A DNA stretch of 64,000 bases from assembly GCF_033366695.1 (NCBI RefSeq), contig NZ_JAOBTQ010000001.1, forward strand, positions 3,286,001 to 3,350,000, given 5' to 3'. A program made the position numbers and the translations under genes. The DNA comes from Streptomyces sp. SCL15-4 (lineage in GTDB: Bacteria > Actinomycetota > Actinomycetes > Streptomycetales > Streptomycetaceae). Below are positions 54,175 to 58,680 of the stretch, piece after piece. The notes under the pieces were generated by a model, which was not told the DNA's origin, searched no databases, and saw nothing but the letters and a program-made list of their open reading frames with translations. The first letter of the stretch is position 1. The number at the start of each line of letters is the position of its first letter.

Positions 54175-56208
54175 TCAGGAGGCGGTCAGCCGCGTCCGCA
54201 GGGCCTGCGGGTCCGTCACCGGCAGGTCGCAGACGAAGCCCCGGCAGACGTACGCGGCCGGGGCACCGTCGACGAGGGTGCGGCCGGCCAGCAGCGGGAA
54301 CTCGTCGCTGTCCGGGATGCCGCAGGCGACGACGGCCCCCGGGGCGGCGCCCAGCAGGGCCGTACGGTACAGGGCGGCCGTCCGCTCGTCGTCCGGGCCG
54401 GGTCCCACGACGGCCACCTCGCGCGGCCCGTCGAGCAGCGCCTCGGCCACGGCCAGCCCCCATCCGATGAACCGCGGCACGCGCGGCCCGAGGGTCTTCA
54501 CGACGCCCAGGGCCCGCTCGGCGGCGGCCCGGTGGGGCTCGGAGCCGGTGTGGGCGGCGTAGCTCAGCAGGGCGCCGGCCGCGGCGGTCCAGCCGGAGGG
54601 GGCGGCGTTGTCGGTGGGGTCCTGGGGCCGGCGGATCAGCCGCTCGGCGTCGGAGGCGGTGTCGAACAGGGCGCCGGTCTCCGGGTCGGCGAACCGGTCC
54701 ATGACATGGTCGAGCAGCAGTCCGGCGAACTCCAGCCAGACGCCCTCGCCGGTGACCGAGGCGAGCGCGAGGAAGCCCTCGGCGACGTCGCCGTAGTCCT
54801 CCAGCACACCCGCGTTGGGGCCGACCCGGCCGTCCTTGCTGGTGCGGGCGAGACGGGCGTGGTCGTCCAGGTGGACGCGGACCAGCAGGTCGGCGGCGCC
54901 GACCGCGGCCTCGACCAGGTCGGGCCGGCCGAAGTAGGCACCGGTCTCGGCGAGCGCGGCGACGGCGAGCCCGTTCCAGGCGGCGACGACCTTGTCGTCC
55001 CGGCCGGGGGCGGGCCGCAGGGCGCGGGCGTCGAGCAGCCGGCGCCGGACAGAGGCGACCTTCTCCGCGTCGAAGACCCCTTCGGTCTGCGGCAGTTGCA
55101 GCACGGACCGGCCGTGCTCGAAGGTGCCCTCCTCGGTCACGCCGAAGTACTGGGCGGCGAGTGCGGCGTCGTCGCCGAGGACGTCGCGCAGTTCCCCGGG
55201 CGTCCACACGTAGTACGCCCCCTCCACGTGCCGTCCGGTGCCGTCGTCGCTGTCGGCGTCCAGGGCGGAGGCGAACCCGCCCTCGGGCGTGCGCAGTTCG
55301 CGGACGAGGAAGTCGGCGGTCTCCAGCGCGACCCGCCGGGCGAGGTCCGAGCCGGTGGCCCGCCACAGGTGGGCGTAGACCCGGCACAGCAGGGCGTTGT
55401 CGTAGAGCATCTTCTCGAAGTGCGGCACGACCCAGTCCCGGTCGACGGAGTAGCGGGCGAACCCGCCGCCGAGCTGGTCGTAGATCCCGCCCCGCGCCAT
55501 CCGCTCACAGGTGTCCGCGGCCATCTGCAGCGCGCCTTCGGCGCCCGTGCGGGCGTGGTGGCGCAGCAGGAACTCCAGCACCATGGACGGCGGGAACTTG
55601 GGCGCGCCGCCGAATCCGCCGCGCTGCGGGTCGTACTCGCGGGTGAGGCCGAGCAGGGCCTGCGCGAGTTCCTGCTCACCGGGCGCCTCGGCGGCCTGCC
55701 GGACGATCTCTCGCTGGGCGAGATCGCGGACGATCTTCCCGGCGACCTCGCTGACCTCGTCGTGCCGGGTGGTCCAGGCCTGCTGGACGCCCTCCAGCAC
55801 CTGCCGGAAGGAGGGCATGCCGTGGCGCGGGGCCGGCGGGAAGTAGGTGCCGAAGTAGAAGGGCTCGGCGTCGGGCGTGAGGAAGACGGTCATGGGCCAT
55901 CCGCCGTGCCCGGTGGCCGCCTGGACGGCCTCCATGTACACCGCGTCCACGTCCGGCCGCTCCTCGCGGTCGACCTTGACGCTGACGAAGTGCTCGTTCA
56001 GGTAGTCGGCGGTGGCCCGGTCCTCGAAGGACTCGTGGGCCATGACGTGACACCAGTGGCAGCTGCTGTACCCGACGCTCAGCAGGACCGGTCTGTTCGT
56101 CCTGCGGGCCTCCGCGAAGGCCTCGGCCGACCACGGCCACCAGTCGACGGGGTTGTCGGCGTGCTGGAGCAGATACGGGGACGTCTCATGGGCCAGTCGG
56201 TTCCGCAT
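54175..56208 (-). CDS. DUF255 thioredoxin-fold protein (YyaL/SPATA20-like)
   Basis: This 677-residue protein has an N-terminal thioredoxin-like DUF255 domain (about 1-165) with the CXXC motif in [16 protein letters not shown]. An (alpha/alpha)6-barrel of the glycoside hydrolase/cellobiose epimerase type follows (about 200-560: [52 protein letters not shown] and [13 protein letters not shown]), then a C-terminal Rossmann-like part. Its activity is unknown. The first codons, ATGCGG, come from DNA that differs from the probable original GTG start. The homologous 5' copy at 57152-57304 shows what was there before. Confidence 0.92.
56051..56203. repeat. 153-bp direct repeat, copy 1 (inside DUF255 gene)
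   Basis: This segment is identical, base for base, to 57152-57304. It spans DUF255 codons from about the third residue to the CHWC motif. Flanking bases differ on both sides, so the repeat ends are sharp. The two copies enclose vapBC. Confidence 0.97.
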
Positions 56209-56440
56209 GGTGCCCATCCTGCCGCAGTACCCCGGAATCGGCGCACGGTCACCGGGACGCGCCCGAAGCGCGGGGGCGGCCCGGGGAGCCGGCCGGCAGA
56301 GAGGGCAGGGGTTCTCCTTCTCGATCCGGGTCCCCCGCTGTCCCACCTGCTTCGCTCCAGTAAAAGATCAGGAGAAAACGTGGCTCGCGGGAGGCGACGG
56401 AACCCTCTCCTTGTAATAGAGGTTGTCCTACACTTTGGGC

Positions 56441-56713
56441 ATGAAGCCGACCCGAGCCGGGACCACTGAGAACATCTCCGTGTCCATGCCCGCCGAACTG
56501 GTCAGTGAGCTCCGCTCTCGAACCGGTCGTCGCGGACTGTCCGGCTACATCACCGAAGCCGTCAGGCACCAGCTCGCCATGGACGGGCTCGCCGAGATCG
56601 TCGCGGCCCACGAGGAAGTGCACGGCGCGCTCACAGAGCACGAGATCGAAACCGCTCGTCGCGAGCTGTTCGGGGACGAGAACGCCAGGGATGTCGAGCG
56701 GGGCGTTGCGTGA
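56441..56713 (+). CDS. VapB-type antitoxin (ribbon-helix-helix)
   Basis: The ATG at 56441 gives 90 residues. The N-terminal half (ENISVSMPAELVSELRSRT, then GYITEAVRHQL) is a ribbon-helix-helix DNA-binding domain. The C-terminal half is a charged helix that would wrap the toxin. It has no Shine-Dalgarno; TACACT (56429-56434) six bases before the ATG suggests a leaderless transcript. Its TGA overlaps the toxin GTG (GTGA). Confidence 0.85.
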   Translation: MKPTRAGTTENISVSMPAELVSELRSRTGRRGLSGYITEAVRHQLAMDGLAEIVAAHEEVHGALTEHEIETARRELFGDENARDVERGVA

Positions 56714-57117
56714 AGGAGCAGCCGGCCCGCTCGCTGGTGCTCGACTCCGAGGCGCTCTCCCTGCTCCTGCGCAACGACCGCAAGATGGCCGCTCGCATCG
56801 AGGCATCCCGGCAGGTCGGAGTTCCCGTCCTCGTGTCTGCGCTGACCATCGTCGAAGCCGTGCACGGGAAGACCGATCTGGCGCGCTTGAAGTGGGTGCT
56901 CTCCCGGTTGCGGGTGGAACCGGTCAGCCAGGAGGACTCCCTGACCGCGGTGGAGCTGCTTCAGGACGCAGGCGGGCTGCACGGGCACAAGTACGCGATC
57001 GACGCCCTCGTCGCCGCGCTCGCGCTCCGCGTCCCAGCCCCCGTGATCGTCCTGACTTCCGACCGCGATGACTGGTCGAAGCTCTGCGGGAACCGCGTGA
57101 TCATCAGAGAGGTGTGA
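56710..57117 (+). CDS. VapC-type PIN-domain toxin
   Basis: This 135-residue PIN domain has the four acidic metal-binding positions: Asp12 (VLDSEAL), Glu49 (TIVEAVHG), Asp98 (YAIDALVAAL) and Asp118 (LTSDRDDW). VapC toxins are Mg2+-dependent RNases cutting tRNA or rRNA. Translation is coupled to the antitoxin by a four-base overlap. All key residues are kept, so it is probably active. Confidence 0.87.
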   Translation: MKEQPARSLVLDSEALSLLLRNDRKMAARIEASRQVGVPVLVSALTIVEAVHGKTDLARLKWVLSRLRVEPVSQEDSLTAVELLQDAGGLHGHKYAIDALVAALALRVPAPVIVLTSDRDDWSKLCGNRVIIREV

Positions 57118-57144
57118 GCACCGCCGACTACTGGGTTCGCGAGT

Positions 57145-57306
57145 TCACTGGCACCAGTGGCAGCTGCTGTACCCGACGCTCAGCAGGACCGGTCTGTTCG
57201 TCCTGCGGGCCTCCGCGAAGGCCTCGGCCGACCACGGCCACCAGTCGACGGGGTTGTCGGCGTGCTGGAGCAGATACGGGGACGTCTCATGGGCCAGTCG
57301 GTTCAC
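57145..57306 (-). pseudogene. Displaced 5' fragment of the DUF255 gene
   Basis: A 53-codon open frame starts at GTG 57306 and reads [14 protein letters not shown] onward through the CHWC motif to CHWCQ and a TGA at 57145-57147. Its start has GGGAGAG eight bases upstream, better than the start of the intact gene. It is probably the ancestral beginning of the DUF255 gene, now cut off by the inserted segment. It may still be translated to a short peptide. Confidence 0.8.
57152..57304. repeat. 153-bp direct repeat, copy 2
   Basis: Perfect match to 56051-56203, offset 1101 bases. The first bases that differ are at 57151 and 57305. No gene is supported in the 257 bases between this copy's start codon and the next gene end at 57564. 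Confidence 0.97.
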
Positions 57307-57563
57307 CGTTCCGCTCTCCCACGGGCCCCGGCGGCACGGAGGACCGCGGGAGCCCCGAGCGCGCCCCGTACGGCGCTCCTCACGCGGGCGGCTGCGGCGG
57401 CCGGCAGGCGTCGTGGTGCGCGCCGGCGCACGCCCTGCCGCCGGAGCGGGGCGTACGGCCGGTGGCCGCCCGGCGGGACCGGCGGCTGCGCATGGCTCCG
57501 GACCGCCACGCCCGTGGGTGTACGGGGTGGCGGCGCGGCGGGACGGTGAGCCCCGGGGCCGGT

Positions 57564-57797
57564 CTACTGCGCCGGGGAACCGGCCTTCTTCCCGGCCGGC
57601 TCCGCCCCGGTGTCCGGGGCCTCCTTGAAGTCGACCTTCTGCATGTGCTTGCTCATCGACTTCATCAGGCCCCAGACGGCCACGGCCATCACCGCGAAGA
57701 CGATGAAGCCGAGGACACCGGGGGTGACCTTGTTCTGGTCCACCTCCTTGGCGAGGGGGACCAGGTGCGTCATTGCGAGGCTCACGCTTGCGCTCAT
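57564..57797 (-). CDS. Small single-pass membrane protein
   Basis: From ATG 57797 the product is 77 residues; ATG 57806, inside the end of mca, would add three. One helix ([22 protein letters not shown]) is followed by a basic then acidic tail ([17 protein letters not shown]). It lies one base beyond the mca stop on the same strand. Conservation beside mca in Streptomyces is remembered, not checked. Function unknown. Confidence 0.75.
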
Positions 57798-57798
57798 G

Positions 57799-58680
57799 TC
57801 AGGCATTGTCCCGGATGCCCGCGAAGAGGTCGTCCTCGGGGAGGGAGGTATCGACCAGAGACTTCGCCAGCTCGTACTCCTCGGTGGGCCAGACCTCCTT
57901 CTGGAGCTCCAGCGGCACCTTGAACCAGCCGCCGTCCGGGTCGATCTGCGTGGCGTGGGCGATCAGCGCCTTGTCGCGGATCTCGAAGAAGTCCGCGCAG
58001 GGGACGTGCGTGGTGAGGGTGCGCTCGGTGCGCTGCATCTCGTCCCAGCGCTTGAGCCAGTCCCCGTACGGCGACTCCAGGCCGCGGTCGAGCATGGCCT
58101 GGTGCAGCGCCTCGGTGCGGGGACGGTTGAAGCCCTGGTTGTAGTACAGCTTCAGCGGCTGGTAGGCGGGCCCGTACTCGTCCTCGGGATACTTCCCGGT
58201 GTCCGCCGCGCCCTCGAACGCCACCATGGAGATCTTGTGGGTCATGATGTGGTCGGGGTGCGGATACCCGCCGTTCTCGTCGTAGGTGGTGATCACCTGC
58301 GGACGGAAGGAGCGGATCTTGCGCACCAGCTCGCCGGCCGCCCGGTCGACGTCCTCCAGCGCGAAGCAGCCCTCGGGCAGCGGGGGCAGCGGGTCGCCCT
58401 CCGGCAGGCCGGAGTCGACGAAGCCCAGCCACTCCTGCTTGACGCCGAGGATCTCGCGGGCCTCGTCCATCTCCTTCTTGCGTACCTCGTGGATGTGCTC
58501 CTCGATGTAGGCGTCGCCCTGGAGCTTGGGATTGAGGATGGATCCGCGTTCTCCGCCGGTGCAGGTCACCACCAGCACGTCCACCCCCTCGGACACGTAC
58601 TTCGCCATGGTGGCCGCGCCCTTGCTCGACTCGTCGTCGGGGTGCGCGTGAACGGCCATCAGTCGCAACTGGTCAGTCAA
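57799..58680 (-). CDS. mca: Mycothiol S-conjugate amidase
   Basis: This 293-residue zinc hydrolase of the LmbE-like family has the metal motif AVHAHPDDE at about residue 10, TCTGGERGSILN, then YDENGGYPHPDH with the third metal ligand. Mca cleaves mycothiol conjugates of electrophiles and drugs, releasing a mercapturic acid for export. It also overlaps in activity with MshB. Mycothiol is found only in actinobacteria, which fits the host. TTG 58680 is the start, with GAGGA seven bases upstream. It is divergent from the DUF4307 gene. Confidence 0.96.
   Translation of the reverse strand: MTDQLRLMAVHAHPDDESSKGAATMAKYVSEGVDVLVVTCTGGERGSILNPKLQGDAYIEEHIHEVRKKEMDEAREILGVKQEWLGFVDSGLPEGDPLPPLPEGCFALEDVDRAAGELVRKIRSFRPQVITTYDENGGYPHPDHIMTHKISMVAFEGAADTGKYPEDEYGPAYQPLKLYYNQGFNRPRTEALHQAMLDRGLESPYGDWLKRWDEMQRTERTLTTHVPCADFFEIRDKALIAHATQIDPDGGWFKVPLELQKEVWPTEEYELAKSLVDTSLPEDDLFAGIRDNA

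Follow-up and report, generated by a model that had tools for sequence, protein, structure and literature searches.

Among the described systems that come closest to the locus treated here are the cis-mobilizable elements (CIMEs), which, in the accessible part of their description (PMC5704250), keep their attachment (att) ends, lack integration and transfer genes and accrete in tandem at one target gene. Streptomyces prophages with serine integrases (PhiC31, Samy and others) have an intragenic attB with conserved arms around a short core (accessible part of PMC12924846), and integron cassettes and clusters of attC sites lacking integron-integrases (CALINs) are small units and integrase-less arrays at a repeated recombination site (accessible part of PMC11389934). 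Here we describe a 1,101-bp unit of Streptomyces sp. SCL15-4 that lies within a window of 64,000 nucleotides (contig NZ_JAOBTQ010000001.1, positions 3,286,001 to 3,350,000; the window is this whole stretch, and coordinates are counted from its first letter) and in which a vapBC toxin-antitoxin (TA) pair is placed between two identical copies of the 5' end of a DUF255 gene. This unit is probably an integrase-less, att-flanked cassette, similar to a CIME or hitcher, at a serine-integrase attB inside the DUF255 gene, which is rebuilt upon insertion. The insertion is exact, its end is fixed across unrelated cargo, a similar arm adjoins that end, and the site is associated with phages and recombinases.

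The two copies, at 56051-56203 and 57152-57304, correspond to codons 3-53 of the DUF255 gene, are offset by 1,101 bp and form the perfect 153-bp block of a 156-nt direct repeat (D1, 56048-56203 and 57149-57304, 99% identical), and this perfect repeat is not attributable to chance. Its ends are sharp, with 33% identity over the 60 bp upstream of the copies and 18% over the 38 bp beyond the core. The original prediction, made from the sequence alone, had described vapBC between exact copies with no mobility gene, and the repeat, its sharp ends and the open reading frames (ORFs) were all confirmed: vapBC are the sole genes in 56051-57151 and no recombinase gene occurs among the ORFs between the copies. 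Excision of exactly 56051-57151 rebuilds an empty site that is colinear with single-copy relatives through the junction (85.7% identity over 1,316 bp to G033, loci L012/L052, and about 84% to G003, G040 and G024, the loci aligned including L014/L142, L022 and L013/L141; G and L numbers are the labels of genomes and loci in this analysis, and WIN that of the window), and therefore a real insertion of 1,101 bp has taken place. The predicted insertion into a single-copy site is thus borne out by an empty site in these four relatives, as is the view that the unit makes use of the 5' end of DUF255 without disrupting the gene, the PF03190 gene being complete. A separate leader and an in-frame GTG belong to the far copy, which terminates in SSCHWCQ-stop; because its leader matches the sequence upstream of the intact gene in single-copy relatives (63-88 bp), it reads as the displaced original 5' end. 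The gene-side leader is akin to DUF255 leaders of other strains (91% identity to L017 over 58 bp), and this copy and its leader were probably brought in by the unit. The features of the locus are as follows.

56051..57151, no strand: inserted unit, core to core, 1,101 bp; removal restores the alignment with single-copy relatives
54175..56208, minus strand: DUF255 gene, thioredoxin-like, intact (PF03190, E 2.4e-77), start codon at 56208
56051..56203, minus strand: gene-side copy of the DUF255 5' end, perfect repeat, with a leader like other Streptomyces DUF255 leaders
56051..56058, minus strand: att core CACTGGTG, gene side, which reads as an intact attB with CHWCH codons
56204..56440, no strand: divergent leader between DUF255 and vapB, of which 56204-56400 is mostly absent from other vapBC units
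56401..57151, plus strand: conserved block of vapBC and arm, 84-93% DNA identity in matches of at least 728 bp (73% over 715 bp in G022, L039)
56441..56713, plus strand: vapB, predicted antitoxin of 90 aa, named by its place before a PIN toxin and by homologous pairs
56710..57117, plus strand: vapC, predicted PIN-domain toxin of 135 aa (PF01850, E 8.3e-8)
57118..57151, minus strand: P'-like arm beginning CCAGTGAACTCGCGAACCCAGTAGTC, about 25 bp past the core similar across copies from different loci
57152..57159, minus strand: att core CACTGGTG, far side, placed by the repeat and the arm alignment
57152..57304, minus strand: far copy, displaced original DUF255 5' end, ending in SSCHWCQ-stop, placed by the repeat and the alignment of relatives
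57305..57392, minus strand: DUF255 leader of the ancestral arrangement, at present lying upstream of the far copy, 88 bp aligned in G033, G040 and G024 and 63 bp in G003
57564..57806, minus strand: conserved neighbour, an ORF for an 80-aa membrane-protein-like product, no NCBIfam match
57799..58680, minus strand: conserved neighbour mca, mycothiol conjugate amidase (TIGR03446, E 3.9e-148)

The vapB product has no family match in Pfam, NCBIfam or PADLOC, and vapC, which carries the PIN domain given above, has no match in a PDB search. Matches of other vapBC units to 56204-57151 start near position 191-221 of that segment.

Recurrence at the same codons was followed in 392 congeneric (Streptomyces) genomes with the 53-residue DUF255 start as query (cut-off E 1e-8). 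This start is matched in 389 genomes, with one copy in 353 and two or more in 36, so that, in agreement with the original prediction, relatives do not all carry two copies. Loci of 34 of the 36 multi-copy genomes were examined, G209 and G283 being left out; in G283 the extra copy lies 1.4 Mb away from the gene. A first set of 18 extra copies, chosen via a DNA query containing the window's arm and thus less independent than the second, includes 16 that stop at CHWC, one of a codon-267 type (L038) and one unclear case (L048). The second set covers 18 of 20 further multi-copy genomes with 19 extra copies (a third copy of G350, 48 kb off, was left out): the CHWC codons are the end point of 14, with minor core changes in some, two end at codons ~267-274 beside a different recombinase, and three are decayed. 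In 19 of the 20 second-set genomes the extra copy is upstream of the gene, on the same contig and strand. One of the 14 is followed by a P arm (L162, G174), this far copy being P-P'-like. The first set includes loci from another family of the same order, in which AAA-DUF4143, Fic and DUF7711 genes stand as separate units between successive copies, forming an array (L033). Codons ~267-274 appear to be a second insertion point in DUF255. A second serine recombinase family is seen beside the DUF255 copy of this type (L038:6650-8392, L144:5899-7581 and L149:5508-7190), the L144 and L149 proteins being 94% and 96% identical to that of L038, respectively. A TA-only unit of this size had been called unusual. 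This is right in part: vapBC units that are nearly minimal and share its right end exist also in G224 (L132, plus one predicted ORF) and G195 (L131, in which the far copy is not recognisable).

Past the core CACTGGTG, far copies enter non-DUF255 sequence that is similar between copies for ~25 bp. In an alignment of 17 of the 18 typed copies (one was omitted for its length difference) the mean information of this arm is 1.1, 0.7, 0.8 and 0.7 bits in successive six-base blocks and 0.1-0.5 thereafter. The pattern TGYCACTGGTGYCAGTGAACTCGC, with up to two mismatches, is present in 12 of the 392 genomes and its reversed control in none, and an exact search of named genomes with a shorter form of this pattern returned 13 loci, and DUF255 starts are present in 12. 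A match to the pattern in Phycicoccus (L079) occurs without DUF255 and was set aside as chance.

The same site is found next to phages and serine recombinases. In G035, two DUF255 5' copies enclose a prophage of 57 kb that encodes a terminase, a helicase and a primase, and a 573-aa protein with Resolvase and Recombinase domains is encoded beside its DUF255 gene and divergently from it; this protein was detected by profile, a motif search across loci having missed it and given spurious matches only. In this prophage (L047/L066, near L066:210-400), a 20-bp P arm breaks the DUF255 frame at the core and supplies an ATG in frame with the remaining codons; close to its far end the prophage has a porphobilinogen deaminase-like gene (L057:10358-11296). 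The IMG/VR phage L054 has the attP-like order DUF255 5' end, P arm, core and P' arm, and its recombinase, which adjoins this 5' end, is homologous to that of G035 (33.6% over 566 aa). A third phage contig, L055, has the order 5' end-P-B'-gene. Within the best 30 G035-type recombinase loci, DUF255 adjoins the recombinase in eight (G035 and seven others). In these seven Streptomyces loci (L124-L130) the recombinase is directly upstream of DUF255, the gene is intact and no far copy was seen, both over the part examined, and most have changed codons past the core (CHWCHVL), which could reflect a used or protected attB. In low-GC proviruses (L166, L168 and L169), the DUF255 start likewise stops at CHWC or shortly after it; its neighbour is a serine recombinase in L168 and a recombinase zinc-ribbon fragment in L169; no recombinase was noticed in the part of L166 listed. 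It thus seems that the site serves several recombinase families, and, with recombinase sequence near two of these starts, it may be used in other phyla.

Searches for related phage functions gave a mixed yield. With PHROGs and Pfam, ten proteins each (nine and ten, respectively, from the G035 prophage), replication, packaging, regulatory and metabolic genes were recognised and no integrase, the recombinase gene being outside that sample. A viral scan with the single recombinase as query gave no match, and one with a recombinase alignment as query retrieved the contig of L054 and four distant contigs; relatives in named phages are 24-29% identical among the best 30 of 118 records. The only phage record matching the DUF255 start, L065, was rejected, its neighbours reading as ordinary bacterial genes at a contig end, and so were the IMG/VR records L053 and L167, in which the DUF255 gene continues past the core. 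Plasmid matches numbered 12 records. Inside the islands, PF00239 was found in none of 20 checked multi-copy genomes, the window's included, and PF00589 only in G410 (24-kb island) among the matches listed.

The cargo between copies is diverse. It includes a CBASS cyclase with a SAVED effector (L037), AbiEi/AbiEii (L040), the AAA-DUF4143, Fic and DUF7711 proteins of L033, all three PDC-M55 parts with a Uma2-like nuclease (L135), an AbiJ N-terminal domain with a kinase (L136) and a CBS protein with a PDC-S02-like part (L041); type I-E cas genes adjoin the far copy in L070 and L076, the gene side lying outside the sequence examined. The cargo is not exclusively defence, and proteins of 951 aa (L037), 662 aa (L081), 398 aa (L041) and 283 aa (L048) have no family match. 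Large cargo proteins that lack a convincing family match are encoded at L036:10570-15090 (1,506 aa) and L037:10248-13103 (the 951-aa protein), and a Uma2-like gene is often the neighbour of a GVT-type DUF255 5' end (L135:13012-13578 and equivalents). The pair vapBC with its arm stands beside DUF255 copies in S. zinciresistens, S. misionensis, S. jumonjinensis, sp. A0958 and further genomes, and in S. durocortorensis with a partial vapC. Its coding DNA is 84.6-92.8% identical to that of the window, versus 73.1-84.4% for the DUF255 body of the same hosts, vapBC being closer in 10 of 11 hosts and about equal in one; compared with mca in four hosts, vapBC is closer in L133 and L134. These identities suggest, less strongly than the evidence for the site itself, that vapBC has spread horizontally. 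That the locus is a multi-cargo hotspot associated with serine-recombinase phages is a wider point than the original prediction had made.

In the mechanism proposed here, the C-H-W-C-H codons of DUF255 would be the attB that phages and similar elements use through their large serine recombinases; these elements would bring their own copy of the first ~150 bp of the gene, so that insertion restores the 5' end and pushes the old one away. The window unit would be such an element of 1,101 bp, of which a leader, vapBC and a single att arm (P') are left; it has no recombinase and would have been inserted by a serine recombinase acting in trans or since lost; vapBC would favour its retention. The phage L054 is arranged as 5' end-P-P' and the cassettes as 5' end-B-B' on the gene side, and two routes fit both arrangements. 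In one, recombination with wild-type DUF255 would repair a gene-side P-B' junction, turning it into B-B'; the unit would then be fixed where it lies, attB would again be available to a further element, and identical copies like those of the window could result. In the other, a B-P' hybrid circle would be recombined directly with attB by the recombinase.

Several observations weigh against this mechanism or the site-specific exchange on which it is built. The cassettes have no P arm on the gene side, which implies a B-P' hybrid as donor, and attB with a hybrid site is a non-canonical serine-integrase reaction. A circular form of the unit was not seen, there is no recombinase near the window, the one PF00239 match of its genome is 3.2 Mb away, and this genome has no relative of the G035 recombinase at 1e-30. 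When copies are compared with the nearest native genes in 20 two-copy loci, the gene-side copy is the nearer one in three (L132, L041 and L162), and nine are tied, small or reference-dependent (WIN, L139, L133, L040, L037, L157, L159, L148 and L163); a comparison restricted to the 25 bases nearest to the core gives a mixed picture. The leaders match too in L139, L133 and one L037 copy (0.92-1.00), as plain duplication or homologous exchange would give. Finally, vapBC is not closer than mca in L073 (91.4 versus 93.0%) or in L078 (mca over 135 bp only).

One rival reading is homologous integration, in which a circular or linear donor would have entered through the ~150-bp DUF255 homology and RecA, with no site-specific step in this host. 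The original prediction had left the mode of arrival between site-directed or homologous integration and a stripped relic of an element that targets this gene; the site-directed and relic forms both fit, and homologous integration is only a rival, which we consider unlikely. Such an exchange would account for 153 bp of perfect identity next to diverged leaders, as also in L040 (0.99, leader 0.37) and L034 (0.95, leader 0.38), and for the matching leaders of L139 and L133; exchange of flanks between chromosomes could spread units without a recombinase, and the near-core positions are not decisive. Recombination at random points within 150 bp should leave mosaic copies, but in several loci the two copies are of different types right up to the core: judged by their residues over that length, far copies are HET, the native type, and gene-side copies GVT in L135, L136, L072 and L043. 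The far copy is nearer to native genes in eight of the 20 loci (L134, L135, L136, L138, L072, L043, L156 and L160), and the end point is common to unrelated cargo. These comparisons favour exchange at the core, although in some loci the exchange may have been homologous. The identity of the window copies had been taken as a sign of recent arrival, which is not supported: in 23 pairs the ungapped identity of copies ranges from 0.53 to 1.00, and because high identity next to a diverged leader recurs in L040, gene conversion explains the window as well as recency does.

A narrower form of the att-flanked cassette reading holds that a larger serine-recombinase phage or mobilizable element lost all but vapBC and its att ends, leaving a strict CIME, and its chances appear to fall only slightly short of even. 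Decay of elements to integrase-less, att-flanked remnants has been described (accessible part of PMC5704250), and vapBC with the same arm also accompanies larger cargo, namely the CBS protein of L041, the Uma2-like gene of L134 and the CRISPR-Cas genes of L076 (gene side outside the sequence examined); set against this, no phage remnant was seen in the 1.1 kb, and G224 and G195 have further nearly minimal vapBC units that share its right end. A local tandem duplication or an assembly artefact can each yield a short direct repeat and is highly improbable here, the leaders of the two copies being different (33% over 60 bp) and each like native leaders of other strains; misassembly in particular is unlikely because the same architecture recurs in assemblies of many other genomes. 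A much broader extension of the cassette reading is doubtful: the CHWC codons would be a docking site for serine recombinases across phyla and would support, in actinobacteria, an integron-like exchange in which tiny circles, each with one defence or TA operon and with the 5' end of a host gene serving for recombination, move about and are inserted in trans by phage recombinases, attB being regenerated each time and arrays building up.

The DUF255 site is a specific position in a conserved gene that is shared by phages and by small units, often with defence cargo. The movement of recombinase-less defence genes between bacteria thereby becomes directly testable, and Streptomyces defence systems not yet characterised may be sought at this site. 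A search of the open-access literature gave no paper that links DUF255 or YyaL with integration. Like type II VapBC TA systems, the pair in the window has a small-protein gene overlapping a PIN-domain gene, from which a TA function is predicted; what sets it apart from them is its constant position next to the att arm of a mobile unit. SXT/R391 is a large conjugative element with a tyrosine integrase that integrates into the 5' end of prfC; there, too, the element gives its target gene a new promoter and 5' end, and its integrase type, size and conjugative nature set it apart. With Streptomyces serine-integrase prophages the locus shares an intragenic attB, arms around a short core and, in the phages found here, a recombinase beside the att site. 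In contrast, next to attP these phages have a duplicate of the 5' end of the gene, and the Streptomyces sites named in the accessible part of PMC12924846 do not include DUF255. Large serine recombinase elements are characterised by crossover at a fixed core, to which the ends of the extra copies conform (16 of 18 and 14 of 19, as judged from alignments); the window unit encodes no such recombinase, and its relatives G035 and L054 do. Integron cassettes and CALINs differ in that the repeat here is the DUF255 5' end and not attC, and IntI was not seen, no IntI-specific search having been made. With the CIMEs the unit shares the absence of integration and transfer genes and the accretion of units at one target, and it appears to keep att ends. 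What distinguishes it is the apparent association with a phage-type large serine recombinase, the duplicated 5' gene end, sizes down to 1.1 kb and cargo that is often defence or TA; the related autonomous elements found are phages, no search having been aimed at relaxase or conjugation genes. As for the att ends, the far side is B-P' and the gene side reads as a restored attB instead of P-B', and because of this restored attB membership among the CIMEs is incomplete. The unit works like a CIME or hitcher, and the cassette reading, if true, would describe a system of integrase-less cassettes that depends on serine recombinases in place of attC or tRNA genes.

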